From contig NZ_RHOR01000008.1 of the NCBI RefSeq assembly GCF_003946625.1, forward strand, positions 1 through 64,000: a stretch of DNA of 64,000 nt, read 5' to 3'. This DNA is from Companilactobacillus kedongensis. GTDB taxonomy: Bacteria > Bacillota > Bacilli > Lactobacillales > Lactobacillaceae. The notes under the pieces are model-generated. The model had not been told where the DNA came from. It searched no databases and saw nothing but the letters and a program-made list of their open reading frames with translations. Shown here in pieces: positions 12,334 to 40,935 of the stretch (its first letter is position 1; each line of letters starts with the position of its first letter). The translations under genes and the position numbers were made by a program.

Positions 12334-12471
12334 AGAGCGAAACAAGACGGTTAGCTCTCGAGCATTACCTAGGATAAGGGCAATGGTGATTTATACCATT
12401 GCCCTTATTCGTAGTAAGCGGAAAGAGTTGTCTTGTGTAGCTCGTTTCTGCCGTCTCCGATTGAAAGAAAA
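12334..12471. repeat. Pair 1, left member: degenerate structured repeat
   Basis: This follows the aldolase stop directly. Outer arms with ACAAGAC and GTCTTGT pair and enclose a 13-bp hairpin (ATAAGGGCAATGG and its complement). Only one large hairpin is left instead of three, so it is either an eroded copy of the cloverleaf family or an unrelated palindrome. Its position opposite the well-formed copy at 12665 argues for the former. Confidence 0.45.
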
Positions 12472-12589
12472 TTTCCGACTCTATAGAATAAATATATTGA
12501 TGATTCTTTTATAGTCGTTAGATGGAATATTTCACTTAACTTCTATGGAAGGATCTTTTTATTTAGAAATATCATAAATTTTGAATACT

Positions 12590-12639
12590 AAATAGGAGTT
12601 GTATCGCACTTTAGAATTAGTGCGATACAACTCCTATTT
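12590..12639. terminator. Bidirectional terminator between convergent genes
   Basis: A perfect 21-bp stem (from AAATAGGAGTTG to CAACTCCTATTT) with an 8-base loop sits midway between the aldolase and the drug exporter. The flanking T and A runs are weak but present on both sides. Confidence 0.75.
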
Positions 12640-12664
12640 CTTATATTAAATTTTAGAACTCGCT

Positions 12665-12826
12665 TAGTCGGAAGGTCTGAGAATATTCACCTGCTATGAA
12701 AATGTCGTTATGGCTTTAGCCATTACAACATCGGGCGAGTTTGGAGACTTACCAGTCTTTGGTAAGACTTCAAACCTAGGGACCGGTCCGCATAGCAGGT
12801 GAATACTATCAGACCTGCAGACGGAC
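12665..12826 (-). repeat. Pair 1, right member: cloverleaf repeat
   Basis: Outer arms AGGTCTGA..TATTCACCTGCTATG and CATAGCAGGTGAATA..TCAGACCT pair over about 26 bp. Inside are a hairpin with stem ATGGCT/AGCCAT and one with stem CTTACC/GGTAAG, plus a short remnant of the third. Conserved CGGGCGA joins the first two hairpins and GGTCCGC precedes the closing arm. It lies just after the stop of the minus-strand exporter. Confidence 0.8.
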
Positions 12827-12834
12827 AACACACA

Positions 12835-14181
12835 TCAATTTAATTTTCTAGACCAAACGATTCCTAATAACGACAATACTGCAGTTCCAATCATTGTTGC
12901 CTGAAAACCACTTATAAAATTTGTCCTATAAAACTGATAAAAAATGATCACGGCAATAGTTGTTCCCAATGCGCCGCCTAATAAACGAAAAACATTATAA
13001 ATTCCAGAAGCCTTTCCAATCATCAACTTTGGAACAGATCCGATAACGGATTTTTGTAAAGCTGGTCCTGCCATTGATAAACCGACGCCCGCCAGCATTA
13101 GCGGTAAAACTATCCAAGAATAATTCTTGTGAACAAACAGTGTAATTAGAAAATAGCCAATTCCCTGAAACAACAAGCCCAATGTGGCTATCCAACGTTC
13201 TCCAAATTTATCGACCGCATGACCTGCAAAAGGCGCAACAATTACCAGCGTACCTGTCCATGGAAGAAGTTCTAAACCTGCGGTTAATGCTGTTCCTTGT
13301 TGATTTATCTGTAAATATTGTGGCAAAAAGAAAACAACTCCATACATGGAACCATATAGACAAGCGGTTGCTAGATTACCGCCAGTAAAGCTTTTTTCTC
13401 GAAAAAGATCCAGGGAGATCATCGGTGATTTCTCATAAGATTGACGATATACAAAACAGATACCACAACCTAAACTAATTACTCCAATTAATAATACCAA
13501 AATTAATTGTCCCATTTTTAAGTTGCTTGTCGTTGCAGAGAGTGTCCAAATAATTCCTGCTGACGCGACAATAATTAGCAAATTATCAACTAAATGTATC
13601 GGATCACTTTGTCCGTGACTCTCTGGTAAGTAATGTTTAGATAACAGAATAGACAAAATGCCAATTGGCACGTTGATCCAAAATATCCATTGCCAAGTAA
13701 GCTTTGCAACAATGAATCCACCTAGTGAAGGCCCCACAATTAATGCTAAACCACCAATACCGCTCCAGATACCCAGTGCTCGCCCACGTTGATCGGTCGG
13801 TAATGCATTAGTAAGAATCGCCATCGACATCGGCGTCATAACTGAAGCACCTAAACCTTCAATAATCCGAGCTAAAATTAGCCAGTCAATACCATTTGAT
13901 AAAGCACAAAGTACTGATCCTATGGTAAAAATCAAAATACCCAAATTGTATATTCTCAGGCGTCCAAAGCGCTCGCCCAAAGAAACACCTACCAATAAAA
14001 CTGCAGCGATTGTAATATTGTAAGCATTTAATGCCCACTGCAATGTACTCACTGAAATTTGAAATTCATTTCTAATTGCTGTAGAAGCTGTGGTCACGAT
14101 CATCGCATCCATCATGGCCATGAAAAATCCTAATGAAGTCAGTAAAAGTACCCATCTGGAACTAATTTCTTTGCCTGCCAT
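12835..14181 (-). CDS. MFS drug:H+ antiporter, DHA2 (EmrB/QacA) family
   Basis: A 448-residue integral membrane protein with about 14 hydrophobic segments, the DHA2 arrangement. The N-terminal MAMMDAMIVTTASTAI segment and RIIEGLGASVMTPMSMA (motif C region) are characteristic. It probably exports a lipophilic or cationic drug; the substrate is unknown. ATG 14181 is preceded by GGAGACGG and was chosen over an upstream in-frame codon that lies inside the operator. A 28-bp palindrome covers the promoter exit, and the ArsR regulator gene stands upstream. Confidence 0.88.
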   Translation of the reverse strand: MAGKEISSRWVLLLTSLGFFMAMMDAMIVTTASTAIRNEFQISVSTLQWALNAYNITIAAVLLVGVSLGERFGRLRIYNLGILIFTIGSVLCALSNGIDWLILARIIEGLGASVMTPMSMAILTNALPTDQRGRALGIWSGIGGLALIVGPSLGGFIVAKLTWQWIFWINVPIGILSILLSKHYLPESHGQSDPIHLVDNLLIIVASAGIIWTLSATTSNLKMGQLILVLLIGVISLGCGICFVYRQSYEKSPMISLDLFREKSFTGGNLATACLYGSMYGVVFFLPQYLQINQQGTALTAGLELLPWTGTLVIVAPFAGHAVDKFGERWIATLGLLFQGIGYFLITLFVHKNYSWIVLPLMLAGVGLSMAGPALQKSVIGSVPKLMIGKASGIYNVFRLLGGALGTTIAVIIFYQFYRTNFISGFQATMIGTAVLSLLGIVWSRKLN

Positions 14182-14202
14182 TTTCCGTCTCCTAGTATTA
14201 AT

Positions 14203-14230
14203 AAATAGTTCAAATATTTTTGAACTATTT
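14203..14230. promoter_or_regulatory. 28-bp perfect palindromic operator of the drug exporter
   Basis: AAATAGTTCAAA (14203-14214) and TTTGAACTATTT (14219-14230) flank TATT. TTCAAA/TTTGAA arms are typical of ArsR-family sites. It lies immediately downstream of the exporter -10, so binding of the adjacent ArsR protein would block transcription. Confidence 0.75.
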
Positions 14231-14231
14231 A

Positions 14232-14260
14232 AAGATAGCATTGACTAAATTCCCTGACAA
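14232..14260 (-). promoter_or_regulatory. Promoter of the drug exporter
   Basis: On the minus strand TTGTCA (14255-14260) and TATCTT (14232-14237) are separated by 17 bp. The palindromic operator begins one base beyond the -10. Confidence 0.6.
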
Positions 14261-14269
14261 GTGACAAAT

Positions 14270-14300
14270 AAAAAAAGAGAGGATCATAATGATCTTCTCT
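14270..14300 (-). terminator. Terminator of the ArsR regulator gene
   Basis: GAGAGGATCA and TGATCTTCTC pair around a small loop, and the minus strand runs into T after the stem. It separates the regulator transcript from the exporter promoter. Confidence 0.75.
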
Positions 14301-14316
14301 TCATTGGTCTAATTGC

Positions 14317-14604
14317 TTATAAGTTTTGCCAGAAATGGGTCAAATAGTAATCAAAAGTTGGCCGGTCTAATTTTACATATTTTTCTCGTGCAATTTTATG
14401 CACAGTGATCAATCCGGCCTCTTGCAGAATTTTAAAATGATATGAACCAGAAGTCTTACTAATATCCATAGCTTGACCAATTTCACCACAAGACTCTTCA
14501 TGATTCAGCTGATTCAGATACTTGATGATTTCTAAACGAATAGGATCGGCCAAGGCCTTAAATATCTTAATACTATCTTCAGATGTATAATTTTGTTTTG
14601 TCAT
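14317..14604 (-). CDS. ArsR-family transcriptional regulator
   Basis: This 95-residue protein is a single winged helix-turn-helix: FKALADPIRLEIIKYL, then a recognition helix around MDISKTSGSYHFKILQEAGLI and a wing ending KYVKLD. Cys residues of the classic metal site (ELCVCDL) are not present; the only Cys is in EESCGEIG. It may therefore sense a drug or redox change rather than a metal. It probably represses the downstream exporter through the 28-bp palindrome. Confidence 0.85.
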   Translation of the reverse strand: MTKQNYTSEDSIKIFKALADPIRLEIIKYLNQLNHEESCGEIGQAMDISKTSGSYHFKILQEAGLITVHKIAREKYVKLDRPTFDYYLTHFWQNL

Positions 14605-15022
14605 ATTGTTTACCCTATGAAAAATTAATTTTTAAGCAAGTATTTGTGAACGTATCAAGAATATAATTCATTTCTCCAAAAAGTACAAACTAATCTGTAA
14701 ACACTAGCAACATGAGATATGGAGTTATTTAAGTTTTTAGGAGAAAATATATATTATATTATCCCATATACCTCACATTTATAACGTTCTAAAACCTTAT
14801 AAATAGGCATTTATCAAAAAATCCCATTTTTTGAAAGAAACTCTTTCAAAAGTTGGGATATATAAAATGACTTATGGTTGTATAGTAATAACTGTAATAG
14901 ATGTTAACCCTCGAAATAAAAAAAGTAACATACACACACATTTAACAAGTAATATAAAAAGCCCACTGACCACACATCAGCAGGCTTCCCACACACACAA
15001 CACACACATATATTTAAGTATA
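14605..15022. other. Intergenic region with palindromes and CA-rich runs
   Basis: No ORF with a ribosome binding site was found. It holds a hairpin of TTTTGAAAGA and TCTTTCAAAA with a 3-base loop (14829-14851), extended by ATCCCA (14821-14826) and TGGGAT (14854-14859). Runs of CACACA at about 14930-14946 and 14990-15009 read as UG-rich RNA in the 3' UTR of the SLAP gene. The ArsR promoter lies at the left end. Confidence 0.5.
14959..14987 (-). terminator. Terminator of the SLAP protein gene, loop UGUGUGG
   Basis: AAGCC/GGCTT and CTGA/TCAG pair with a small internal mismatch, and the minus-strand loop is TGTGTGG; TTTTTATATT follows. The same seven-base loop occurs in a leader hairpin of the same gene. 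Confidence 0.8.
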
Positions 15023-15532
15023 TTACGAAATTGAAGATGTAACTTTTTGTTCAATGACATCGTACATTGAAACGTAAGCATCTGTAGAAATACGTACATA
15101 AGGTATTCCAGATTGGCTAGTTATAACAGAATCTGAGTACCATGAACTTCCAGGAGTAACAGATAAATCATCTCTCTCTTCGAAGTTATGATTATAAATA
15201 GGAACTGAATGATCTGAGGCTACTTTGATAACCTCGGGTCTTTTTTTGTATAAATAACTATCATCTGAACTTAAATATGCCCCTGTTGAAACTTCATAGT
15301 AATCTTTACCATTGATGTTAGTTACATTACCGACAGCCCATGTACTCTTAGCTGGTAAAGCAACGTCAATGTTGTCACCTGAATCATCATATAGTGTTGC
15401 CTGGTTTGATGAAACTTCTGCGGTGTAATTTTTGGCAGTGACTGAACCCGCCTGCGCTGTTGTTGCTGTTGCAAATGCTGATCCGATTCCCAAAACGGAA
15501 GCAGCTATGAATAACATAGATGTTTTTTTCAT
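15023..15532 (-). CDS. Small secreted SLAP-domain surface protein
   Basis: The 169-residue product from ATG 15532 starts MKKTSMLFIAASVLGIGSAFATATTAQA, a clear signal peptide cleaved near residue 28. The mature part has two SLAP-like repeats: TLYDDSGDNIDV..YYEVSTGAYLSS and VPIYNHNFEERDDL..IPYVRISTDAYVS. Such domains bind secondary cell-wall polymers non-covalently (family knowledge). GAGGG is 9 bases upstream of the start; an upstream in-frame extension contains no signal sequence and lies in the leader. The leader and 3' UTR carry hairpins sharing a UGUGUGG segment. Confidence 0.82.
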   Translation of the reverse strand: MKKTSMLFIAASVLGIGSAFATATTAQAGSVTAKNYTAEVSSNQATLYDDSGDNIDVALPAKSTWAVGNVTNINGKDYYEVSTGAYLSSDDSYLYKKRPEVIKVASDHSVPIYNHNFEERDDLSVTPGSSWYSDSVITSQSGIPYVRISTDAYVSMYDVIEQKVTSSIS

Positions 15533-15577
15533 GTTTAATACCCTCGACTTTATATTTAAATTACGAATAACATACAC

Positions 15578-15637
15578 AGAATAACCACACATTATTCTGC
15601 ACACACACAAGAGATCGACCACACATGTAAATCTCTT
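15578..15637 (-). promoter_or_regulatory. Leader hairpins of the SLAP gene with UGUGUGG loop segments
   Basis: On the minus strand AGAATAA-TGTGTGG-TTATTCT (15578-15598) is a perfect 7-bp stem with a 7-base loop. A second hairpin with arms AAGAGAT/ATCTCTT (15609-15637) holds the same TGTGTGG within its larger loop (15619-15625). Both lie in the 5' leader upstream of the ribosome binding site. Confidence 0.65.
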
Positions 15638-15686
15638 TTCACCACTTATATTACACACCCTAGAAGTAAAACACAATAAAAAATTC

Positions 15687-15717
15687 CATTTTTCGTAAGT
15701 CTGTCTTACGAAAAATG
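15687..15717. repeat. 13-bp perfect inverted repeat
   Basis: CATTTTTCGTAAG and CTTACGAAAAATG flank a 5-base loop. It lies between the rpsN terminator and the SLAP leader. It could be an operator or a weak terminator; no regulator is adjacent. Confidence 0.6.
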
Positions 15718-15798
15718 AAATAAAACGCGTGCATTATTGTGTTATGGGCATTCTGAAGTATTCTCAAAAAGTATTAAATTTTTTATATAAAACTAAAA

Positions 15799-15839
15799 AA
15801 AAGAGCAATTCAGCCAAAATATGGCTAAATTGCTCTTTT
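15799..15839 (-). terminator. Terminator of rpsN
   Basis: AAAAGAGCAATT-c-AGCC and GGCT-a-AATTGCTCTTTT form a long stem directly after the rpsN stop, with T on both sides. Confidence 0.85.
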
Positions 15840-15842
15840 CTA

Positions 15843-16112
15843 TTACCAACTTGCTTTTTTTACACCTGGAATTTGACCAGCATGTGCTAATGAACGGAAG
15901 TTCAAACGAGACATTTTGAACTTGCTCATATACCCTCTTGGTCTGCCATCGATCAAATCGCGAGAACGCAATCTTGTCGGTGAAGCATCCCTAGGAAGCT
16001 TACTTAACTCTTCATAATTTCCAGAAGCCTTTAGTTCTTGACGTAAATCGGCATACTTAGCGACTGTTTCTTGTAGTCGCTTTTCACGTTCGATTTTTGC
16101 TTTTCTTGCCAT
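15843..16112 (-). CDS. rpsN: 30S ribosomal protein S14, zinc-free form
   Basis: The 89-residue protein starts [14 protein letters not shown] and ends with [22 protein letters not shown], the conserved S14 C-terminus. The CxxC..CxxC pairs of the short zinc-binding form are absent. Firmicutes often carry such a stand-alone copy outside the S10/spc cluster and use it when zinc is scarce (family knowledge). I could not find a clear Zur box upstream. Confidence 0.95.
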
Positions 16113-16217
16113 ATCTATTTACCTATTCCTCTATATTTTGTGAGGAAGTCTCGCTAGTTAATTATCGAATCATGTATGACAATATCAAAGCTGTAATAAT
16201 ATAGCAAATAATTTATC

Positions 16218-16841
16218 TTATTTAATTTCGTACCTTAAAACTGTCTTTAATTTATCATCTGCAACTCTTCTAGCATCTGATAAATATATCTCACGGTGGA
16301 CCATAGAAACTCTTACCTTCCCAAGTTTTGAACATTCTTGATTCATAATTTCAAAGCTGGCTGGTTCATCATCATATTTTCCAATATGTAATATTTCCAT
16401 AACTTGCTTGGCAGGATAAGTTTTTTGTTCTAATTCTTCCATTAATGGATGATACTTTTTCTCTTTAACATTCTTTATAGCAATCTGAACAACTTCTTCT
16501 GGTACAAAATCAGGAATACGTATCATAATATCGTAGACGAATTCATTCTTATCCAGATGATCCATCTTTTGACCGGCATCAGTCAATGACCAAACTCCTT
16601 CTAAAGGAAAGACAACATAATCATCAAACTCAACTTCTTTGTCCTGACAATATTTACGATAAGCAGCTTTTATTCCATAAGAAATAGGATACAAAACTTG
16701 GATCCGTTCCTTAAACTCAGAACCGTTGGGATCTCCGATACCTTTTAATGAGATAAATCTTTGTTCTGGTATATCTAGAGCAATCGGTTTTTGCTTAGGT
16801 AAATAAAATTGCTTTTCTTGTTTACGCCATTCGTATTTCAT
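16218..16841 (-). CDS. GyrI-like small-molecule-binding domain protein
   Basis: The 207-residue cytosolic protein begins MKYEWRKQEKQFYLPKQKP and matches the GyrI-like/SOUL-type effector-binding fold in pattern (FISLKGIGDP, VFPLEGVW, YDIMIRIPDFV). Such proteins bind or hydrolyse small hydrophobic compounds; the exact role here is unknown. It follows treR by 9 bp in the same direction and may share its transcript. Confidence 0.72.
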   Translation of the reverse strand: MKYEWRKQEKQFYLPKQKPIALDIPEQRFISLKGIGDPNGSEFKERIQVLYPISYGIKAAYRKYCQDKEVEFDDYVVFPLEGVWSLTDAGQKMDHLDKNEFVYDIMIRIPDFVPEEVVQIAIKNVKEKKYHPLMEELEQKTYPAKQVMEILHIGKYDDEPASFEIMNQECSKLGKVRVSMVHREIYLSDARRVADDKLKTVLRYEIK

Positions 16842-16850
16842 GCTTTTCTC

Positions 16851-17582
16851 CTAGTAATACTGGAACCCTAACATTGAGAAGTTGTTAGGCACGTAACGAG
16901 TTTCTGTATATTCAAACAAACTTCCAGCATCGGTATACACAAATTTTGTCAATGAACCAACGCAGTTCATGTCACCTAATTCCAAAACTTCTCTGTCTCT
17001 TTGATCAGCTGAAACAACTGAAGAAAGTGAACGCTGAGCGGCAACTTTGAATAATTCATTATCACGAATATATTGATAAACAGAACCTTGAGCATCTTCT
17101 CTTGTAAATCCACTCAATGCATCGGCTCTAAAGTAACTATGATCGATTGCTAAGCCTTTACCATTAAATAAACGTAACCTTTCCAGATAGAATGCTTTAT
17201 CATGGATATTAAATGAGGTTAAGTTAGCAATTTTCTCGTCAACTTCAACTTCTTTAAAATTTAAGACATCAGTGTCCAGTTCTTGGATGAACTTGTTTTG
17301 TGGAAACGAACGTAATCCTTGGAATCCTTCGGAATTATTAGCCGAGAAAACCACTCGATTGCTGTGGACTGGTTCTAAAACTACCACTCCGCGTCCCTTT
17401 ACCGCATAAACAAGACCTTCTTCTTGCAACTGTTTTAAAGCACGTCGGACTGTATTACGAGTGACGTCAAAGCGGGCTGAAAGATCCTCTTCTCTAGGAA
17501 GTGAGGTCTTAGGTTGATATACATTAGTATGTATTTCCCTTTTCAACGTTTCGTAAATTTCTGTATATAACTTCTTTGGCAT
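16851..17582 (-). CDS. treR: GntR-family regulator, TreR-like
   Basis: The 243-residue protein has an N-terminal GntR winged helix (residues about 1-68; LPREEDLSARFDVTRNTVRRAL) and a C-terminal UTRA effector domain (LERLRLFNGKGLAIDHSYF, FEYTETRYVPNNFSML). The pattern resembles trehalose operon repressors, whose inducer is trehalose-6-phosphate. It is divergent from a PTS permease. Two TGTTTAAACA palindromes lie in the shared region, and the same motif precedes the second PTS gene at 46296-48281. That the effector is trehalose-6-phosphate is inferred. Confidence 0.78.
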   Translation of the reverse strand: MPKKLYTEIYETLKREIHTNVYQPKTSLPREEDLSARFDVTRNTVRRALKQLQEEGLVYAVKGRGVVVLEPVHSNRVVFSANNSEGFQGLRSFPQNKFIQELDTDVLNFKEVEVDEKIANLTSFNIHDKAFYLERLRLFNGKGLAIDHSYFRADALSGFTREDAQGSVYQYIRDNELFKVAAQRSLSSVVSADQRDREVLELGDMNCVGSLTKFVYTDAGSLFEYTETRYVPNNFSMLGFQYY

Positions 17583-17618
17583 CAGATTTTCCTCAACTTA
17601 GATTTTAAAAGAATTATT

Positions 17619-17652
17619 TGTTTAAACAGAACTATTATAATATGTTTAAACA
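17619..17652. promoter_or_regulatory. Twin TGTTTAAACA operators between treR and the PTS gene
   Basis: Perfect TGTTTAAACA palindromes lie at 17619-17628 and 17643-17652, 24 bp apart centre to centre. The right one is directly upstream of a TATAAT at 17659-17664 reading towards the PTS gene. TreR is the natural candidate ligand. Confidence 0.75.
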
Positions 17653-17669
17653 TGGTATTATAATAACAG

Positions 17670-17683
17670 TGAAACCGTTATCA
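17670..17683. promoter_or_regulatory. cre (CcpA) site of the PTS gene
   Basis: TGAAACCGTTATCA fits the core TGNAANCGNWNNCW consensus fully. It lies a few bases downstream of the candidate -10, a position where CcpA acts as a roadblock. Confidence 0.75.
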
Positions 17684-17770
17684 ATGAAACCCAAATTTTT
17701 CGACTTTTTAGAAAAATATACTTTTATTATAAACCATAAACTTAACCTTTATTGATACGGAGGGAATATT

Positions 17771-19636: not shown

Positions 19637-19641
19637 AAATT

Positions 19642-20757: not shown

Positions 20758-20760
20758 TCT

Positions 20761-20927
20761 GCCGCCTACGGTTACGATAACCTCATCTGCATTAAGACCG
20801 GTTCAAGCCACGGTCTTGAACCTTGATTCTGAGCTTTACTTCGTAAATCTCAGAATACGTCTAGGGTGTAAGAACGAAACGTTCTAACACCCTTTTTAAT
20901 GCTGATGTGGTTCTCATAACCTTCGGC
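20761..20927 (+). repeat. Pair 2, left member: cloverleaf repeat
   Basis: Arms GGTTA..CATC-t-GCATTA and TAATGC-t-GATG..AACC close the element. Inside are three hairpins: GGTTCAAG/CTTGAACC, TTCTGAG-c-TTTAC/GTAAA-t-CTCAGAA, and GGGTGT-a-AGAACG/CGTTCT-a-ACACCC. It begins just after the esterase stop. Confidence 0.85.
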
Positions 20928-20942
20928 TAATTTTAAAAAAAT

Positions 20943-20993
20943 AAAGGAGAGCTATTTATCACTTTATATTGAAGTGATAAATAGCTCTCCTTT
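20943..20993. terminator. Bidirectional terminator between convergent genes
   Basis: A perfect stem of about 22 bp (AAAGGAGAGCTATTTATC and complement) has a 6-base loop. The minus strand runs into TTTATTTTTTT. It lies between the two repeat copies. Confidence 0.8.
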
Positions 20994-21037
20994 AATTGAT
21001 TCGTACACTGTTTTATTCATAAATTTACTGAACATAA

Positions 21038-21207
21038 ATCGGAAGATATGAGAAATATTTTCTGGCAGTGAAAGTGTCGTTATGGCTTTAGACATTACAA
21101 CACCGGACGAGTTTGGAGACTTGCTTGCAAGGCCTCAAACTGAGGTTCCAGACCAAGGCTGGAACCGTTCCGCACGGCCATAAAGTATTTCTTATATCTG
21201 GAGACAG
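21038..21207 (-). repeat. Pair 2, right member: cloverleaf repeat
   Basis: Outer arms AGATATgAGAAATA and TATTTCTTATATCT pair; the three inner hairpins include TATGGCTTTAGACATTA, GTTTGgAG-a-CTTG/CAAG..CTCAAAC and GGTTCCAG/CTGGAACC with loop ACCAAGG. It follows the stop of the minus-strand nuclease gene. Confidence 0.82.
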
Positions 21208-21223
21208 CAAACAAAAAACACTA

Positions 21224-26004: not shown

Positions 26005-26175
26005 TGCCGTCTACAGTGATGGAAATATTCTCCTGCTATGCGGGACGGATCGAGCCAAGGTCTCGCTCTTCGGTTGGAAGCCTTGTAAACAAGTCTTCCA
26101 ACTCGCCCGATGGTGTAACGGCTGAAGCCGTAACGCCATTGCCATAGCTGGAGAATATTTCCATCACTTCCGACT
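26005..26175 (+). repeat. Pair 3, left member: cloverleaf repeat
   Basis: Arms GTGATGGAAATATTCTCC-t-GCTATG and CAT-a-GC-t-GGAGAATATTTCCATCAC pair over about 24 bp. Hairpins inside: GAG-CCAAGGT-CTC, GTTGGAAG..CTTG/CAAG..CTTCCAAC, and ATGG..GTAACGGC/GCCGTAACGCCAT. The reverse complement aligns well with the copy at 26343. It lies upstream of usp, not in a 3' UTR. Confidence 0.87.
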
Positions 26176-26276
26176 AATTTGGTATTAAAAATAAATCATG
26201 TAATTATAGAAAAAATTATACATATAAAGCATAGATTGGATTTAATAGCCTAATTTCCAAATACCGACACAATAAA

Positions 26277-26315
26277 AACCCCTCAATTTGAATTCAATAT
26301 TCAAACCAAGAGGTT
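26277..26315 (-). terminator. Terminator of the metal ATPase gene
   Basis: AACC-c-CTC..TGAAT and ATTCA..GAGGTT form a stem; the minus strand continues as TTTTTATT. The right-hand repeat copy lies between it and the ATPase stop, so the repeat would be transcribed as 3' UTR. Confidence 0.7.
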
Positions 26316-26342
26316 AACTTTAATTTCATAATAAACAAATCT

Positions 26343-26519
26343 AGTCGGAAGGACTGAGAATATTTACCAGCTATGAAAATGTTGTTATGGCTTTAGCCAT
26401 TACAACATCGGGCGAGTTTTAAGACTTGTCGAACTTTACAAGCCTTAAAACCGAGGCACCAGACCAAGGCTGGGACCGGTCCGCATAGCAGGTGAATATT
26501 CTCAGTCCTGGAGACGACC
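26343..26519 (-). repeat. Pair 3, right member: cloverleaf repeat (best-formed copy)
   Basis: AGGACTGAGAATATT and AATATTCTCAGTCCT pair perfectly, followed by an inner stretch with AGCTATG/CATAGC. An internal GGA/GGA loop and GTC/GAC pairs extend the base. Hairpins: GTtATGGCT/AGCCATtAC, TTTTAAG-CTTG/CAAG-CTTAAAA, and CCAG-ACCAAGG-CTGG. CGGGCGAG and GGTCCGC are the conserved linkers. Confidence 0.88.
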
Positions 26520-28911: not shown

Positions 28912-28998
28912 TTATTTTAAAATGGGGTAGCTTGATGGCTGGCCTATTTTTTTGTGCTAAATTCTGAAATTTGGTGGCTGGGTTACTGAAAGGTTTTT

Positions 28999-29168
28999 GC
29001 CTCCGGTTGGACGAAGTTTGTCTGCACTTGGACCGATCCCAGCCAAGGTCTGGCATCTCGATTTTGAACTTTGCTTTCGCAAATCTCAGAATCGTCCATG
29101 GCCTAAGAACAGAAAACCACTGTTCTAATGCCATTGTAAGTGCCGACAAACTTCGCCCAACCTCCGGC
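28999..29168 (+). repeat. Pair 4, left member: cloverleaf repeat
   Basis: Arms GGTTGG..CGAAGTTTGTC-t-GCACTT and AAGTGC-c-GACAAACTTCG..CCAACC pair over about 25 bp and are flanked by GCC-tcc / tcc-GGC. Hairpins: CCAG-CCAAGGT-CTGG, CGATTTTGA..TTTGC/GCAAA..TCAGAATCG and ATGGC..AGAACAG/CTGTTCT..GCCAT. It follows the czrA-like gene. Confidence 0.87.
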
Positions 29169-29206
29169 TATATTGATGAACTATATATTTTTAATACAAA
29201 CAAAAA

Positions 29207-29239
29207 AGCACGATCCCAACAAAGTGTCGAAATCATGCT
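29207..29239 (-). terminator. Terminator of the glpT-like gene
   Basis: AGCA-c-GAT and ATC-a-TGCT pair and the minus strand ends TTTTTTG. It lies beyond the right-hand repeat copy, which would be part of the 3' UTR. Confidence 0.65.
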
Positions 29240-29281
29240 ATCAAAATACATTATTCATTTTTCTATATACCACAAATATAA

Positions 29282-29451
29282 GCTGAAGATTACAAGTAAT
29301 GGAACCAGTTGTGCAAGTGACGTTAGAGGGCGATTTACCCTCTTACACCACTGACGATTTCGAGATTTGCGAAAGCAAAGCTCAAAATCGAGCCTTCAGA
29401 CCTTGGCTGAAGGCGACCACACAACAGGTGGAATTACTTGTAATTTTCAGC
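29282..29451 (-). repeat. Pair 4, right member: cloverleaf repeat
   Basis: Arms GCTGAaGATTACAAGTAAT and ATTACTTGTAATtTTCAGC pair. Hairpins: AGAGGG/CCCTCT, CGATTTcGAGATTTGC/GCAAA-g-CTC-a-AAATCG and GCCTTCAG-ACCTTGG-CTGAAGGC. The reverse complement resembles the copies at 36695 and 40439. Confidence 0.87.
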
Positions 29452-29470
29452 GACAACAACAACCAAAAAC

Positions 29471-31774: not shown

Positions 31775-31782
31775 CACACACA

Positions 31783-32964: not shown

Positions 32965-33006
32965 ATTGTTTTTACTATTTCTACAGAAAAAAGCTGGAGG
33001 AAACGA

Positions 33007-33444: not shown

Positions 33445-33466
33445 TTTAAAATTCTCCAAGCTTTAT

Positions 33467-33512
33467 GTGTTGACAAATCAACACGAGCGATTTATGTTAT
33501 TAACAATAACAT
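33467..33512 (+). promoter_or_regulatory. als promoter with two palindromic operators
   Basis: TTGACA (33470-33475) and TATGTT (33493-33498) are 17 bp apart. GTGTTGA-CAAA-TCAACAC (33467-33484) covers the -35 and ATGTTATT-AAC-AATAACAT (33494-33512) covers the -10. The two palindromes differ in sequence, so they may bind different proteins. Confidence 0.78.
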
Positions 33513-33546
33513 CACTAACCGAGATACTCAAGGAGGATACACATCA

Positions 33547-35223
33547 ATGTCAACTGAAAAAAATGGTGCTGAGGCTTTATTCAATTCAATGGTCAACCAG
33601 GGGGTCAAGTATGTTTTCGGACTTCCAGGCGCTAAAGTAGATAAACTTTTCGATCTATTGGAATACAGCGACAATCCTAAAGCTCCTAAACTTATCATTA
33701 CACGCCACGAACAAAATGCAGCTTTTATCGCGTCAGGTATCGGCCGTCTAACTGGCAAACCTGGTGTAGTCGCAACAACATCAGGTCCTGGTGTTTCAAA
33801 CTTAGCTACTGGTTTGATCACAGCAACTTCTGAAGGTGATCCTGTTGTTGCTCTAGGTGGACAAGTTCCTCGTAATGATGTGGCCAGATTGACACATCAA
33901 AGTATTCCTAGTAAAGAGCTTCTAAATTCTGCTACAAAAGACAGTGTCGAAGTTCAAGATGCTAACAATATCTCTGAAACATTTGCCAATGCTTATCAAA
34001 CAGCCATGGCTCCAAAATCAGGTGCAACTTTCATTTCTTTGCCAAAGGATGTCTTAGATGACCCTGTTAACGGAGAGGAGATCAAAACACTTGCCCCTAT
34101 TCAACAAGGTGGTGCCGACAGCGACACTATCAATAAGATCATCAACAAGATCCAACATGCTAAATTACCAGTTATTTTGGCCGGTATGCGTTCATCTAGT
34201 GAAGAAGTAACTGAAGCAATTCATCACTTCTTGCACAAATTCTCTATTCCTGTTGTTGAAACTTTCCAAGGCGCTGGTGTTATCTCACGTGATCTTGAAA
34301 AGAACTACTACGGTCGTGTTGGTTTATTCAGAAACCAAATAGGTGATGCCATGCTTAAAGAAAGCGATCTAGTTATCGCCATTGGTTATGATCCCGTTGA
34401 ATACGAAGCTAGAATCTGGAACGTTGGCCGTACAGGTGAAATTATTAATTTGGACAGTATTGCCCCTGAAATTTCTAATGAATACCAACCTGATCTAGTT
34501 GTTCAAGCAGACATTGCCAAAACAATGAAAGATCTTGCTCACAATCTTCCTGCAGATATCGGTTTAAGTGATGACCTCAAAGAACATCTACACCAAATGC
34601 AAGTAAGTTTCGTTTCTCAAGATGAAGTTCCTGAAAAGACCTCTGGTAAAGGTCTACACCCACTATAAATCATCAATGCTTTACAAAATCAAGTTAATGA
34701 TGACACTACTGTTACAGTTGATGTTGGTAGTCATTACATCTGGATGGCTCGTCATTTCAGAAGTTACAAACCAAGACACCTACTATTTAGTAATGGTATG
34801 CAAACACTTGGCGTGGCCTTACCTTGGGCTATTGCCGCTGCTTTGGAACGACCAGAACAACCAATCGTTTCTGTTGCTGGTGATGGTGGATTCTTATTCT
34901 CAGGACAAGAACTAGAGACAGCCGTTCGTTTGAATTTAAATATCGTTCAATTAGTTTGGAACGACGGTTATTACGACATGGTTAAATTCCAAGAAGAAGC
35001 TAAATATGGCCGTCATTCTGGTGTTACTTTAGGTAATGTTGACTTTGCCAAATATGCTGAAAGTTTTGGTGCTACTGGTATGCACGCTGAAACTGCTGAT
35101 CAACTAAAAGACAGCCTAGAAAAAGCCTTCAAGACATCTGGTCCTGTTGTGATCGACATCCCTGTTGATTACAGTGATAACATCAAACTCGTTTCAACAT
35201 TGCTTGAAGACGTATTGAACTAA
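33547..35223 (+). pseudogene. alsS: Acetolactate synthase (catabolic AlsS) interrupted by one in-frame TAA
   Basis: The enzyme condenses two pyruvates to alpha-acetolactate with thiamine diphosphate. One continuous frame of 559 codons has family length (558 residues) but contains TAA at 34666-34668, after GKGLHPL. The first part holds the N-terminal Pyr domain (VFGLPGAKVDKLF, ITRHEQNAAF) and the central domain; the second holds the cofactor motif [19 protein letters not shown]. Reading continues with [20 protein letters not shown], so no frameshift is involved. A CAA-to-TAA change is the simplest lesion. The truncated protein would lack the cofactor domain and be inactive unless the stop is read through or is a sequence error. 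Confidence 0.88.
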
Positions 35224-35239
35224 TAGGAAGGAATTTATT

Positions 35240-35953
35240 ATGTCAAATACAAATATTCTTTATCAACATGGTACTTTAGCCTTACTAGTCCCTGGTCTAC
35301 TCGATGGAACTTTGACTATGAATGAACTATTGCAACATGGTGATACTGGTATCGGAACTGGTGAAGGACTAGATGGAGAACTGATCATTTTGGATGGCAC
35401 ACCCTATCAACTAGATGGTGATGGCAAAATCAATATCCTTGATGGAGATTTTACCATGCCCTTTGCCAATAGCCATTTTGCTGACTATGCCGAAATGATG
35501 GAAGTTGAAAATATCAATCGTGACGACCTACAATCGCAGATCAAAGAAGCAGCCAACAGTGCCAACACTTTCTTCTCTATTAAAATCACTGGTACTTTCA
35601 AAAATATAACTACTCGTGCCGTTAGAAAGTCATCTGCTCCATATGATTCACTTTCCAAAACAGCCGAGAAGCAAAATATGTTCAGTAAAGATAACGTAAC
35701 TGGTACTTTGATTAGTTATCACTCACCTAGTTTGTTTGACGGAGCCGCGGTTGGTGGTTTCCACAGTCATTTCTTATCTGATGACCGTAGTTTTGGTGGA
35801 CATATCCTAAATTTTGATTCAGTTACAGGATCAGTTTCATTTCAACAATTCGACACATTAGAACAACATCTACCTACTGATAATAAAGAATATATGAACC
35901 ATGATTTTTCAAAAGATAATATTATCGACGACGTCCACAACGCCGAAGGATAG
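35240..35953 (+). CDS. alsD: Alpha-acetolactate decarboxylase
   Basis: The 237-residue enzyme converts alpha-acetolactate to acetoin. It shows LYQHGTLALLVPGLLDGTLTM near the N-terminus, GTGEGLDGELIILDG, and the metal-binding GGFHSHFLSDDRSFGGH with three His. It is intact and lies 16 bp after alsS with its own GGAAGG site. With alsS broken, acetolactate would have to come from another source. Confidence 0.94.
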   Translation: MSNTNILYQHGTLALLVPGLLDGTLTMNELLQHGDTGIGTGEGLDGELIILDGTPYQLDGDGKINILDGDFTMPFANSHFADYAEMMEVENINRDDLQSQIKEAANSANTFFSIKITGTFKNITTRAVRKSSAPYDSLSKTAEKQNMFSKDNVTGTLISYHSPSLFDGAAVGGFHSHFLSDDRSFGGHILNFDSVTGSVSFQQFDTLEQHLPTDNKEYMNHDFSKDNIIDDVHNAEG

Positions 35954-35960
35954 TTTTGTA

Positions 35961-36004
35961 AAAGCCAGCAATCTTCGTTTTTGACGATTGCTGGCTTTTT
36001 TTCG
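35961..36004 (+). terminator. Terminator of the als operon
   Basis: AAAGCCAGCAATC and GATTGCTGGCTTT form a 13-bp stem followed by TTTTTTTC. Confidence 0.88.
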
Positions 36005-36080
36005 TAATTTATTTAATAAAGAGTCAAGTGGCACAATCATCAAATAAAAAATTAACTATAACTTTTAAATAAAGCTAATA

Positions 36081-36118
36081 GGATGCTCTACTGAAAAATC
36101 AGTAAAGCATCCCATTTT
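36081..36118. terminator. Stem-loop after the peroxidase gene
   Basis: GGATGCT..ACTGA and TCAGT..AGCATCC pair. The T-rich side is on the plus strand, so its strength for the minus-strand peroxidase transcript is doubtful. Confidence 0.55.
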
Positions 36119-36123
36119 TAATT

Positions 36124-36594
36124 CTATTTACCCAAGGCTTCAACAATATCCGGCTCAACCTTTTCAGGTTTAGTAACAGGTGCGTAACGTTTGATGATCT
36201 GACCATCACGTCCTAACAAGAATTTGGTAAAGTTCCATTTGATACGACCGTTACCAGCATTTTCCTTTAAGTAAGTGAATAATGGATCTTCATCTTCGCC
36301 ATTGACTTTAACTTGTTTAGTCATAGGGAAAGTCACACCGTAATGCATTTGACAGTACTCATTTGTTTCTTCATCAGAACCTAATTCCTGATGAAATTGA
36401 TTAGAAGGAAGGCCTAAAACTTCTAATCCCTGTTCATGATACTTATTATATAGTTTCTCAATACCCTCGAGCTGTGGAGCTAGACCGCATTTGCTAGCAG
36501 TATTAACGATTAAAACTACTTTGCCTTTGTAGCCGTTAAAATCGATCTTGTCACCATTCATCTCTACTTCTGAAAAATCATAAATAGTTGCCAT
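36124..36594 (-). CDS. Glutathione peroxidase-family thiol peroxidase
   Basis: The 156-residue protein uses a cysteine in NTASKCGLAPQ in place of selenocysteine, with the partner residues in LGLPSNQFHQELG and KWNFTKFL. Such bacterial enzymes usually use thioredoxin rather than glutathione to reduce hydroperoxides. GGAAGGA before ATG 36594 decides the start; an ATG three codons earlier overlaps the ribosome binding site. Confidence 0.92.
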   Translation of the reverse strand: MATIYDFSEVEMNGDKIDFNGYKGKVVLIVNTASKCGLAPQLEGIEKLYNKYHEQGLEVLGLPSNQFHQELGSDEETNEYCQMHYGVTFPMTKQVKVNGEDEDPLFTYLKENAGNGRIKWNFTKFLLGRDGQIIKRYAPVTKPEKVEPDIVEALGK

Positions 36595-36694
36595 TAGAAT
36601 CATTCCTTCCGTATTAATGTCATTATACGTTTAATATACATAAGTTATAATTATTTTGAATTTATTTAATTGCAATCTTTTTGCCGAGGGGTGT

Positions 36695-36870
36695 GCCGCT
36701 GGAGATTTTTAGTAATTCCACCTGTTATGCGACCGATTCGAGCCTTGGTCTCTCATCTCGATTATGAGCTTTGCTTACGCAAAGCTCATAATCGTCGGTG
36801 GAGTACGAACGGATAAACCATCCGTTCTACTCCACTTGCACAACTGGTTCCATTACTAAAGATCTCCAGC
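36695..36870 (+). repeat. Pair 5, left member: cloverleaf repeat
   Basis: Arms GGAGATttTTAGTAAT and ATTACTAAagaTCTCC close the element. Hairpins: GAG-CCTTGGT-CTC, a perfect CGATTATGAGCTTTGC/GCAAAGCTCATAATCG with a 4-base loop, and GGAGT-a-CGAACGGA/TCCGTTCTACTCC. It lies upstream of the peroxidase and of the surface protein, not in a 3' UTR. It is nearly identical to the copy at 40439 apart from the outer stem. Confidence 0.9.
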
Positions 36871-36954
36871 TAATGTGTATTATATATAAACTGAATTACA
36901 CAAAATTCAGTCATACACTGTACTATAAGCATCTTTTACACCATAAAACCTCAA

Positions 36955-37124
36955 GCCGGAGGCGATGAGAAATGTGATCAGCAGTGAAAATTCTGTTAGT
37001 GCGGCAACGCCGTGCTTACAGAATGGACGATTTCGAGATTTGCGACAGCAAAGCTCAAAATCGAGACGGGAGGCCTTGACTCACGTCGGCCCCACAGCAG
37101 ACCACATTTCTCATCGCCTCCGGC
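36955..37124 (-). repeat. Pair 5, right member: cloverleaf repeat
   Basis: The outer arm GCCGGAGGCGATGAGAAATG pairs perfectly with CATTTCTCATCGCCTCCGGC. Hairpins: TTCTGT..GCGG/CCG-t-GC..ACAGAA, CGATTTcGAGATTTGC/GCAAA-g-CTC-a-AAATCG and GGCC/GGCC. The core is identical to that of the copy at 40766 while the outer stem differs on both arms. Confidence 0.9.
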
Positions 37125-37248
37125 GTCCTCCACTCCACCACTAATCAATTTTGATAAATTTTCTTTCAAACTTTAGATAATTTAAATAAATATTTTTATG
37201 TTATTATCTAACTATGAAAATACTGTAGACCGCAGTGTTAACCCGTTT

Positions 37249-37285
37249 CTGTTTAAACAGAGCTCGTATACGGCCTAAGTACGAG
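37249..37285 (+). promoter_or_regulatory. CTGTTTAAACAG palindrome and leader hairpin of the surface protein
   Basis: CTGTTTAAACAG (37249-37260) has the same TGTTTAAACA core as the PTS operators. CTCGTA/TACGAG (37263-37268, 37280-37285) follows and could form a small hairpin just upstream of the ribosome binding site. Confidence 0.5.
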
Positions 37286-37299
37286 AGGGAGAATCATTT

Positions 37300-40200
37300 A
37301 TGAAACAACACCGAGGACTTTATTTAGGGATCAATAAGAATTCAAAACCTTTTAAAACAGATAAATTATGGCTAGCTGTCCCGATAGCTACTGCTTCCAT
37401 TGTTGCCGGCTTAGCTATCACAACACCTGTTAATGCCGCAACTACTGATCCTAATTCTACTGAACCTGAATCATCTGAAACTGATACAAGTAACCAAGTT
37501 ATTGACAATTCTTCAATGAATGCAAATACATCAAGCAACGCTGATGAAAATACAGATGATACTTCTGCTACACCTGAAGATAATAACCAAACTCCTATTA
37601 CACCAAAAACAACCACGTTACCAACTCCAACTATCCATACAAATAATCAAAGTGATGCCGTAAGCTATGCTTCTGCTGCCGCACCAAAAAATACCAACAT
37701 TGGTTCTGAAACAACACCAGAATCAAATGCTCAAGATACGGTCTCACAAACTCCAACGGCTAAACCGATTGATTCTATTCCACCTTTGGGTAATTTTTAT
37801 GTAAATGTCAGTTCCCAAAATAAATATGTTCCTTACGATTCTAATGGTTATGCTTCCGTTTTACCATACAGTTCAGAACATTGGATGGACAGTAACAATT
37901 ACAATCCCAATCAAGAACTATACAGTTTTTACATTGTTCTACCTACTGGCGTAACGTCAACAGTTGCTGATATGCAAGCCGGTGCTGACCAATATGTAAA
38001 AGATCTTGCTGCTAGGGGCTATATTCAAATAAGTAGTCTAACCGCATTTCAATTGAATAACACATCAGTAGAAACGGGTAACCGAGAAGTATTTTACTTT
38101 AGACCTGATGACAATGCGCATCTTCTCGGTACAGTCGATCCCAGTAAAGGATTCATAGGACAAACTAAAATGAGCGTTAAAATCCACACTCCAGCGGCAG
38201 ACACTGGCATAACCGGAGTTAATATCAATGCTCTGGAAGATGATGGAACAACTATTTTCCCATCCGGATCAGTTCCTTACAATGATGTTTTGTATGCTGG
38301 AATTGGTGATGGTACATATGATATCAATAACGGATATACAAACATCCCTTCCAGCTATTTTGGTAGTGACTGGCTTGATAAAAACGTCGCAGGAATCTCC
38401 GTTCATAATGGTGCAGCCCATCTTGACTATACTGATTTAAATGTTAATGATTTATACACTGTTTTCACTACTGGTACTGCAGGTGATAAAGAAACTGTCA
38501 TTTATCCAGATAGTTCTCCGCTTAATACTGGCCTTGCGGGTTCTTCATATAATATTAAAGACAAAGTTACTGCTGACATAAATGCCAACACAAAGATAAA
38601 CGAATTCAAAAAAAATTATTGGCTACCATCCTTAAAATATATGGGAACTGATAAGACCGTAACACCAAGTTCAACAAGTCTTGATTGGCCAGGAGATGTT
38701 TATTTAGAACCTACATCCCTAGTTTTATCTAGTAACTCTGCCGTAACTGGTAAAACCTATGTTTTTTGGTTAGACCATATTAAAACGACATTGGTTCCAA
38801 ATGATTCAACAATTGTCGCAGATCCTGATGCAAGTTTTGACCCTGATAACGATGTAACAATAACAGCACCAGGTGGAAATAGCATAAAGATTTCTGATAT
38901 GACTGGAGATAGTACTAAAATCACTACTCCTGGAACTTATACTTACAAGGATTCAGAAAATAATATTCTAACCGTTACATCCAAAGTAGATCCAACGAAA
39001 GTTGGAAACTACAATGTTAAATATGAATATATTGATGCACAAGGAAATAATTATTTTTCAAATGGTTCTACTGGAAGGGTTTCTTACTTAAATACAACCG
39101 TCCACGTAACAAATGCGAAAATAGCTGGAACTGATACAACCATAACTAAAAACACTCCTTGGAACGTTTCAGATGGTGTCTCTGTGAATGACGTAAATGG
39201 TAATCCATTGAACCCACAAGATACCCAAACGGCGTTCAGTAATACTGGCACTACTAATGTTATTACTACAAAAATAACGAAAAATAATCCAGATGGAACA
39301 AGTACTGACGAAACTAGCATTGATACTTCAACACCCGGAAACTATACCGTAGTTTACAGTTACACTGACTCTAATGGCGGCACCGTTCAGTCAGATCCCG
39401 TTACTGTAATTGTTGATGGCAGCCAGATTTCTGCCACAGATGAATCCATCTATCCAAACGGCGACTTATCCACTGCTGTAACAACTTTAAAAAATAGTAA
39501 TAGTGATGATGTTGACCCCAATACAGCTCTTAAAACAGGAACATTAACGGCAGTTGATCAAAATAATGATCCAATTGATACATCTGTACCCGGAACATAT
39601 ACTGTAACCTTTAAATATACTGATCCAACTTCTAAAAAAGTCGTCTCTTCAGATCCAGTAACGATTACTATTAAAAATAATTTGAGTGCTTTAACCACTG
39701 CACCTAAAACTATTAATACTGGGTCAACATGGGACCCTTCACAAAATATAACTGAACTTAAAGATACAGATGGCAATCCAGTTGTCGCTTCAGATGCACT
39801 AGGCAAAACTTTGACCACTACAATTACCGATAGTACTGGTAATCCTGTTGATGCAAGTACAATGACTACTCCAAAAACAGGCACATATACTATCAATTAT
39901 CAGTATACTGATGCAACTGGAAAAACATTGACTGCCACATCAATATTAACCGTCCAGAACCCTACTACTGGATCAAATTCCGGTTCTACCGGTTCAGGTG
40001 CAAACACTGATCCCAATAATAATTCTGGTTCGAATGGTTCCGGTACAAGTACTGATCCTGATAATGGGTCAAACGGATCAAGTACCGCAATAGATCCCAA
40101 TTCTAATGGAAATAATCCAAATACAAATTCAGGTTCAGACAATAATCAAACAACAGATGAATCCAACAATAGTGGTACAAGTCTTGTCGACAATTCATCT

Positions 40201-40428
40201 AAAGTAACTAACACTGCAACTCAAGAATCTGTTACTAAACCTGAAAACAATTCAGCAAATACTACTAATACAGTTAAATCTAATTCAGTTTCAATATCTG
40301 ACCCTACCCCTAATAAAGCAGGTCAATTCCCACAAACCGGCAATCAGTCAGCCTTTTGGGCTAGCGGTTTAGGGATGTTATTACTTGCTATTGGTGGTAT
40401 GTTTGGAATTAGACGTAAAAAGGAATAG
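37300..40428 (+). CDS. Cell-wall-anchored surface protein with Ig-like repeats and FPQTG sorting signal
   Basis: The 1042-residue protein has a signal peptide with cleavage near VNA-AT (residue 46), then an S/T/N-rich linker (about 47-160). A unique domain covers about 160-500 and several Ig-like, Rib-type repeats follow (about 500-880; each ends in a TPGTYTYKY- or VPGTYTVTFKYTD-like strand). A G/S/N/D-rich linker leads to the sortase motif FPQTG, a hydrophobic segment and RRKKE. It is probably an adhesin. It is flanked by near-identical repeat pairs at 36.7-37.1 and 40.4-40.9 kb. Confidence 0.9.
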   Translation: MKQHRGLYLGINKNSKPFKTDKLWLAVPIATASIVAGLAITTPVNAATTDPNSTEPESSETDTSNQVIDNSSMNANTSSNADENTDDTSATPEDNNQTPITPKTTTLPTPTIHTNNQSDAVSYASAAAPKNTNIGSETTPESNAQDTVSQTPTAKPIDSIPPLGNFYVNVSSQNKYVPYDSNGYASVLPYSSEHWMDSNNYNPNQELYSFYIVLPTGVTSTVADMQAGADQYVKDLAARGYIQISSLTAFQLNNTSVETGNREVFYFRPDDNAHLLGTVDPSKGFIGQTKMSVKIHTPAADTGITGVNINALEDDGTTIFPSGSVPYNDVLYAGIGDGTYDINNGYTNIPSSYFGSDWLDKNVAGISVHNGAAHLDYTDLNVNDLYTVFTTGTAGDKETVIYPDSSPLNTGLAGSSYNIKDKVTADINANTKINEFKKNYWLPSLKYMGTDKTVTPSSTSLDWPGDVYLEPTSLVLSSNSAVTGKTYVFWLDHIKTTLVPNDSTIVADPDASFDPDNDVTITAPGGNSIKISDMTGDSTKITTPGTYTYKDSENNILTVTSKVDPTKVGNYNVKYEYIDAQGNNYFSNGSTGRVSYLNTTVHVTNAKIAGTDTTITKNTPWNVSDGVSVNDVNGNPLNPQDTQTAFSNTGTTNVITTKITKNNPDGTSTDETSIDTSTPGNYTVVYSYTDSNGGTVQSDPVTVIVDGSQISATDESIYPNGDLSTAVTTLKNSNSDDVDPNTALKTGTLTAVDQNNDPIDTSVPGTYTVTFKYTDPTSKKVVSSDPVTITIKNNLSALTTAPKTINTGSTWDPSQNITELKDTDGNPVVASDALGKTLTTTITDSTGNPVDASTMTTPKTGTYTINYQYTDATGKTLTATSILTVQNPTTGSNSGSTGSGANTDPNNNSGSNGSGTSTDPDNGSNGSSTAIDPNSNGNNPNTNSGSDNNQTTDESNNSGTSLVDNSSKVTNTATQESVTKPENNSANTTNTVKSNSVSISDPTPNKAGQFPQTGNQSAFWASGLGMLLLAIGGMFGIRRKKE

Positions 40429-40438
40429 TTCGTTGGAT

Positions 40439-40615
40439 GCCGCTTCCGGTTTTTAGTAATTCCACCTGTTATGCGACCGATTCGAGCCTTGGTCTCTCAT
40501 CTCGATTATGAGTTTTGCTTACGCAAATCTCATAATCGTCGGTGGAGTAAGAACGGATAAAACCACCCGTTCAACTCCACTTGCACAACTGGTTCCATTA
40601 CTAAAAACCTCCAGC
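40439..40615 (+). repeat. Pair 6, left member: cloverleaf repeat
   Basis: It is nearly identical to the copy at 36695, but the base of the outer stem reads GGTTTTTAGTAAT / ATTACTAAAAACC instead of GGAGAT.../...ATCTCC. The change on one arm is matched on the other. It starts 10 bp after the surface-protein stop. Confidence 0.9.
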
Positions 40616-40635
40616 TAAATATAGATGTGATATAA

Positions 40636-40680
40636 AAAAATCTCACCATAGAGTTAATAAACTTTATGATGGGATTTTTA
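40636..40680 (+). terminator. Terminator of the surface protein gene
   Basis: AAAATC-tC-CCATA and TATG-..-GGGATTTT pair imperfectly and TTTTTA follows. It lies beyond the left repeat copy, so that copy would be transcribed. Confidence 0.65.
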
Positions 40681-40692
40681 TATGTCTAAATA

Positions 40693-40734
40693 CAAAAAAA
40701 TAGCCATATCCTGTAAAAAACAGAATACAGCTAT
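40693..40734 (-). terminator. Terminator of the ABC permease transcript
   Basis: ATAGC..CTGT and ACAG..GCTAT form a stem and the minus strand ends in a run of seven T. The right repeat copy lies between it and the permease stop. Confidence 0.68.
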
Positions 40735-40765
40735 AAAACTTTTATATAAATTATGGATAAATCAA

Positions 40766-40935
40766 GCCGGAGGAGATGATGAATTTGGCCAGTAGTGAAA
40801 ATTCTGTTAGTGCGGCAACGCCGTGCTTACAGAATGGACGATTTCGAGATTTGCGACAGCAAAGCTCAAAATCGAGACGATAGGCCAAGACTCGAGTCGG
40901 TCCCACAGCAGGCCGAATTCATCATCACCGTAGGC
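40766..40935 (-). repeat. Pair 6, right member: cloverleaf repeat
   Basis: Outer arms GATGATGAATT and AATTCATCATC pair perfectly, then GGCC/GGCC. The central 80 or so bases are identical to the copy at 36955 (TTCTGTTAGTGCGGCAACGC and on). It lies just after the permease stop. Confidence 0.9.

Follow-up and report, generated by a model that had tools for sequence, protein, structure and literature searches.

The window analysed here (64,000 nucleotides of Companilactobacillus kedongensis, contig NZ_RHOR01000008.1, positions 1 to 64,000) contains eleven repeats of ~160-180 bp that fold into a cloverleaf, ten of which form five inverted pairs. These elements are probably non-autonomous mobile DNA, REPIN-like in logic and equipped with folded cloverleaf ends. 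The basic unit would be an inverted pair of ~140-220 nt modules sharing one cloverleaf fold, with right ends pointing outward and a non-coding spacer of ~65-460 nt between the two modules. The right-end consensus in Companilactobacillus reads GGAGACGGCA.

A preliminary description of the window had offered three options: mobile DNA, structured RNA and DNA cruciform. Dispersed units, unrelated flanks and forms with terminal inverted repeats (TIRs) argue for the first. The second is disfavoured as an mRNA element, since orientation ignores transcription, and a DNA cruciform is compatible with mobility.

Inverted pairs and their dispersal

Along the DNA, paired elements follow the order minus copy, spacer, plus copy, with left ends directed inward and right ends outward. 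In the single-contig, element-rich genome G002, 138 copies were collected from 25 loci covering ~465 kb (477,474 bases, ~12,000 of them counted twice, no element being counted twice). Cloverleaves constitute ~5% of the bases in these loci, a density that is biased upward because the loci were picked around known copies. Neighbours within 300 bp of each other are arranged -+ in 35 of 36 cases (++ 1, +- 0, -- 0), and the corresponding figures within 600 bp are -+ 37, ++ 2, -- 2 and +- 1. Six other genomes, two of them belonging to Companilactobacillus, display the -+ arrangement in 27 of 29 neighbours within 600 bp (++ 1, -- 1, +- 0), as counted from 75 of 78 matches. That the elements are paired had been recognized in the preliminary description, and the rule of inverted orientation is added here.

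The pair disperses as one piece, and its flanks are unrelated from site to site. Spacers of G002 are themselves repeated: homologues elsewhere were found for 59 of 138 left arms vs 13 right flanks, and arms gave 217 matches vs 11 for AT-rich control windows. In 96 comparisons of G002 units with homologous spacers (rows that are not independent, and one of which compares a spacer with itself), identity is 85% for corresponding ends (n=85), 69% for crossed ends (n=55) and 72% for background. Because matching spacers have matching corresponding ends and not matching crossed ends, the pair is the unit. In genome G198, pair units of 630-755 bp (two cloverleaves plus spacer), and one triple of 935 bp, recur as copies that are 82-92% identical and have unrelated flanks. 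The two ends of one G198 unit are 49-63% identical, whereas an end's best match elsewhere averages 89%; one unit thus has two different ends and one fold.

Alternative origins of the pair were also considered. Duplication of pairs with fixed left and right types was rejected, the Mantel r being -0.11 in G002 and -0.14 in G009; the window's own genome gave r 0.68 (p 0.01) on 7 pairs only, and spacer linkage was judged a better test of pair duplication than the Mantel statistic. Local inverted duplication is disfavoured by the similarity of pair members as compared with other partners (0.686/0.712 in G002, 0.727/0.770 in G009), although the 7 pairs of the own genome lean the opposite way (0.663 vs 0.624, p 0.12). 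Two fixed end types in G002 are likewise weak, as 17 pairs are mixed, 17 are like and 2 involve a third type.

Paired cruciforms might instead serve the host as a DNA landmark, binding a nucleoid protein, gyrase or an insulator protein at gene borders. BIMEs (bacterial interspersed mosaic elements) bind gyrase, and the outward-facing paired geometry beside genes, the high copy number and the compensatory changes that keep the fold all agree with such a role. We nevertheless regard it as quite unlikely: the elements are patchy among species of one genus, several sites are lost or deleted in Companilactobacillus keshanensis, and units recur with unrelated flanks.

Occurrence of the family among genomes was determined by two approaches. 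Plain DNA search found matches in 11 of 41 genomes, the own one included, all in one genus. Covariance model R1, built on 42 copies from eight genomes (11 of the 42 being window copies), matched 32 of 36 Companilactobacillus genomes at E 1e-3 and 14 of 36 below 1e-30; its counts per genome are lower bounds, capped at 76, the number of candidates scored. Diverged copies are abundant in G021 (at least 142) and G049 (at least 57) at 1e-6. A survey of 295 genomes of the order under stricter filters gave matches at 1e-6 in 17, namely two of the genus, seven from five other genera of the same family and eight from other families. The best matches outside Companilactobacillus are G302 (5e-36) and G325 (1e-32), both of one genus of the GTDB family, and clear matches occur in a third genus (G198, 3e-21; G137, 4e-14). 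The covariance-model scan of Lactobacillaceae genomes that the preliminary description had proposed thus takes the family far beyond the window. Carriage by plasmids or phages was set aside after one element, tried in each of the plasmid and phage collections, gave no match.

In the eight genomes of other families, the best E per genome ranges from 3e-9 to 6e-7. Weak full-length R1 matches are found there at loci L223-L234 (G170, G036, G035, G158, G146). The hairpin-3 motif AGACC-NN-GGCT is present in 10 of these 12 loci, and the best of those shown vary in hairpin 1. A deeper Lactobacillales family behind these matches is possible and is treated as a lead only.

A second repeat family of ~130-160 bp, with no tie to the cloverleaves, was observed at L095 (9894-10049) and similar places of G002. 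Each such place has roughly twelve matches within the G002 sample, and the family also occurs in G005 and G008.

The cloverleaf fold and its orientation to genes

Read from its left end, TAG, to GGCA, the element consists of an outer stem, an internal loop that is mostly GGA/GGA, a long stem of variable sequence and three hairpins. Standard pairs fill 95.5% of the base-pair cells across 42 copies vs 76.3% after shuffling, and the value falls to 35-40% once partners are shifted by one to three columns. Double-sided changes are seen in 49 of 59 pairs vs 34.3 shuffled. None of 500 shuffles reaches either value, in a control that ignores relatedness of the copies. Stems that are very different between copies and yet remain paired indicate that the fold has been kept. 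For complementarity of loops within pairs no rule can be drawn, as the loop TT is common to 84 of the 138 copies from G002.

Alternatively, the family might be a structured RNA, with the plus strand of each cloverleaf transcribed and folded, acting as a leader, a 3' end protector or a small RNA. Such a role is suggested by an excess of G-T over A-C on the plus strand, 105 vs 39 in those pairs that the predictions for the two strands have in common and 219 vs 123 in their union. (The first count, restricted to pairs predicted on the plus strand, was biased and has been replaced.) The plus strand is also the more stable one for 80 of 102 copies, in 96 of 135 copies of G002, in 24 of 25 of G302 and G325 together and in 7 of 9 of G137. 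G198 (10 of 24) does not show this bias, however. In G021 the two strands are almost balanced (8 of 14), G049 has the bias reversed (0 of 3), and one conserved column with 62 A-C cells runs opposite to it.

Gene context is likewise at odds with RNA function. Elements occupy all three kinds of gene gaps (64 tandem, 24 convergent and 21 divergent, n=109). The right end of G002 elements adjoins a gene, at a median of 31 nt to a stop or 93 nt to a start, and the left end is turned to the gap's centre, with medians of 260 and 374 nt; among singles, the right end is the one nearer the gene in 51 of 61. Singles in tandem gaps of G002 are random relative to transcription, the right end facing the 3' end of a gene in 16 cases and the 5' end in 19. 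Orientation of the element is thus independent of transcription, which disfavours an mRNA element.

Comparison with Rfam, suggested in the preliminary description, points the same way. No Rfam 15 family matches the window at gathering score, and in 13 loci from other genomes none matches the elements; three tRNAs and one plasmid RNA were retrieved there. Relaxed-threshold matches on 20601-41000 were rejected as chance-like, with many microRNA models falling on a spacer hairpin. All this considered, a structured RNA appears unlikely. As a separate observation, locus L232 contains a match to a Bacillus-plasmid RNA (RF01691, 1831-1899, 43.3 bits) near a weak element match.

Window elements, decay and single forms

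The window's own genome (G000, with the window on contig C36) comprises 2.27 Mb in 37 contigs. For one window gene, the closest named loci are those of C. keshanensis (98% protein identity) and of C. baiquanensis and C. tucceti (both 96%). The elements were checked by folding, by alignment of the eleven and by the covariance model. All eleven had been located in the preliminary description, and R1 recovers each at full length (1-176 of 176) with E 2e-30 to 4e-46; the remaining 8 of its 19 rows are reverse-strand matches to eight of the eleven. As R1 was partly trained on window copies, independent support comes from the plain DNA search, in which a single copy matched 58 places in the own genome (some partial, some representing a second stem arm). 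Absence of similar copies elsewhere in this genome, which had been put forward as an argument against a family, is therefore not observed.

Five pairs are intact, all inverted and all with the minus copy first. In the pair nearest the window start, the left member (20761-20929, minus strand, 141.8 bits) and the right member (21036-21208, plus strand, 151.1 bits) enclose a spacer with a terminator-like hairpin (20930-21035). C. keshanensis has neither copy at this 20.7 kb site. At 26 kb, it retains the right member alone (26342-26518, plus, 182 bits), the left one (26006-26176, minus, 174.7 bits) being absent from it; the spacer spans 26177-26341. The pair at 29 kb consists of 28996-29170 (minus, 128.4 bits), represented in C. 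keshanensis by a likely scar, spacer 29171-29279 and 29280-29454 (plus, 134.6 bits).

Both members of the 36 kb pair carry internal deletions in C. keshanensis; the left one (36695-36872, minus, 121.9 bits) lies between divergent genes and is separated by spacer 36873-36952 from the right one (36953-37127, plus, 137.8 bits). At 40 kb, where a scar is again likely, the left member (40439-40617, minus, 135.3 bits) is missing from C. keshanensis. Its sequence there is partly homologous to spacer 40618-40763, without intact cloverleaves, and of the right member (40764-40938, plus, 128.7 bits) it seemingly keeps, as judged by eye, the two termini only.

The eleventh element, 12665-12825 (plus, R1 142.5 bits, E 9e-36), has lost its partner and, according to a gap in the alignment, also hairpin 3. 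Three hairpins, which the preliminary description had attributed to each element, are therefore present in ten of the eleven. The partner's scar is found at 12449-12483 (minus), where both ends of the minus copy remain and the core is deleted; it was detected through the outer-end motif, which lies 216 nt to the left of 12665 and has partner orientation. Such a motif, at a distance of 159-222 nt and in partner orientation, accompanies 5 of 88 singles, this one included; controls gave 0 for the opposite orientation and, to the right of the copies, 1 and 2. Copies thus decay by internal deletion of the cloverleaf.

Position 12334, previously taken for the start of a degenerate member, belongs to a different hairpin repeat (12334-12447) with the structure GAGCATTACCTAGGAT - hairpin - CGTAGTAAGCGG. 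The same type of repeat is found in C. tucceti (L011, ~11529) and genome G008, and its first motif GAGCATTACCTAGGAT occurs three times in L102. The window also contains an open frame of 2420 codons (56385-63647, minus strand).

Cloverleaves also occur singly within TIR-bounded units. Many copies of G009 lie within units delimited by the terminal inverted repeat CTAAAGGTTGAAAG. In a sample of nine such units, a cloverleaf is present in eight, which measure 234-329 bp (302-329 in seven of these). Direct repeats of 7-8 bp flank eight as well, not the same ones: three perfect 8-mers were scored, and four perfect and one near-perfect 7-mer were identified by eye. The script mean over 8 positions is 4.7 vs 3.1 shuffled. 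An insertion sequence with a G009-type TIR was detected in G019, its broken transposase frames being pieces of DDE_Tnp_1. Family 1 of G002 has a different TIR, and one of its copies displays a perfect 8 bp duplication (by eye). TIRs together with target duplications in two species point to a DDE transposase. Single-cloverleaf copies may be half units, and DDE insertion sequences may have acquired some of them.

It might be argued that all the repeats are ordinary miniature inverted-repeat transposable elements (MITEs) of a DDE insertion sequence, with the cloverleaf as an incidental passenger. The TIRs and 7-8 bp duplications of G009 and the TIR and one duplication of G002 family 1 fit this explanation. 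It is nevertheless very unlikely, since the two TIRs differ, pair units (58 pairs, 9 G198 copies) are without clear TIR or duplication, and compensatory pairing is not expected of a passenger. Moreover, the G009 end pattern has 294 sites in the 3.0 Mb of G009, whereas none of the 35 further genomes has more than 16, a count that underrates other versions because seven inner bases are included in the pattern.

The putative mover

If the pair is mobile, its cloverleaves might represent ends recognized by a candidate recombinase, and recognition may depend on shape in folded DNA, either single-stranded or extruded, more than on sequence. This would be reminiscent of REP doublets, which are thought to serve RAYT proteins. 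A Y1/RAYT transposase as the mover was ruled out by its distribution across 36 genomes. Of the 14 genomes with strong element matches, 7 have Y1_Tnp (PF01797), as do 11 of the 22 remaining genomes of the genus; it is not associated with the elements. The element-rich G002 has no Y1_Tnp, and in the window's own genome only one 54-aa Y1 frame was found, at a contig end. Among repeats of the G002 sample, the longest of which is 309 bp, no repeated gene bounded by cloverleaves, that is, no autonomous copy, was detected.

Several observations weigh against mobility of the pair. No enzyme that would move the pair emerged from the Y1 survey of 36 genomes. In 58 pairs, the similarity between outer flanks does not exceed that of shuffled ones, for which reason the pair as a long-TIR transposon was rejected, and no clear target duplication is seen. 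Direct repeats in near-symmetric positions are slightly in excess (3 near and 4 far for exact 8-mers, 0.0040 vs 0.0014 per cell), two of the three near 8-mers representing one orthologous site. Nine G198 unit copies similarly lack target duplications, the longest common flank string averaging 4.8 vs 4.9 shuffled. Comparison of G002, G005, G001, G007, G008 and G015 yielded no clean empty sites: sites differ, breakpoints are not clean, and differences between relatives resemble losses or messy changes. One reversed (+-) neighbour occurs in G002, at 300 bp in a convergent gene gap. Finally, 65 G002 singles are slightly more alike than 70 pair members (best-match identity 0.889 vs 0.863, p 0.003). 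This is the reverse of what is predicted if singles are dead halves, and in G002 it may be single copies that were active more recently.

Despite these points, we consider non-autonomous mobile DNA with cloverleaf ends the probable nature of the family. More tentatively, and with considerable doubt, the family could represent a new class of transposable elements of sufficient age to have spread over several Lactobacillales families, whose sequence-divergent ends would be known to a candidate recombinase by shape, as one cloverleaf on the outward-running strand. The moving enzyme should then be common to element-rich genomes across genera. Because the ends of a unit share their fold at ~50-70% identity, these repeats make shape versus sequence recognition of mobile ends testable. 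They may also account for part of the intergenic variation among food-related species.

Relation to known systems

The preliminary description had called the family apparently undescribed and, with no Rfam match, this stands as far as searched: no description of such lactobacillus repeats was found in the literature covered, outside of which most subscription journals lay. EFAR elements are ~170 bp long, intergenic and modular, insert without target duplication and fold into two stem-loops of L shape. Our elements resemble EFAR and Efa-1 as a folded repeat family of similar size, intergenic place and modularity with no clear target duplication in the pairs; they differ by having a cloverleaf in place of the L-shaped stem-loops. 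The literature searched yielded no EFAR sequence. EFAR is perhaps related in kind. It is named as a MITE (PMC3733652), and Efa-1 is tabulated as an E. faecalis repeat family (PMC2267715).

Bacillus cereus group bcr1 repeats, listed at 167 and 147 bp, are of similar size, are also folded and are called mobile-like in a cited title. They belong to another host group, and the table rows devoted to them mention no inverted pair unit. RUP is named among TIR MITEs (PMC3733652), to which some of our copies (G009, G002 family 1) correspond in having a TIR and target duplication, unlike the pairs, including those of the window, and the G198 pair units, which are without clear TIR or duplication. A Y1 transposase acting in trans, as for elements of IS200/IS605 type, is not seen here: G002 has no Y1 and the own genome the contig-end frame only.

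In logic, REPINs are the closest known system. Their inverted REP doublet is intergenic and disperses, includes a spacer, coexists with singlets and is predicted to fold in single-stranded DNA or mRNA (Bertels and Rainey 2011, PMC3116915). The module of a REPIN, as described there, is a short REP palindrome, whereas ours is a cloverleaf of ~177 nt; further, the two ends of our unit differ in sequence, Y1/RAYT is not associated with the pairs, and G002 singles are not more decayed than pair members. Short REPs have a GTAG or CGTC tag; in our elements the left end reads TAG. What the two systems share is the over-representation of an inverted doublet, prevailing both in G002 and in the six other genomes, together with its spacer and accompanying singlets.

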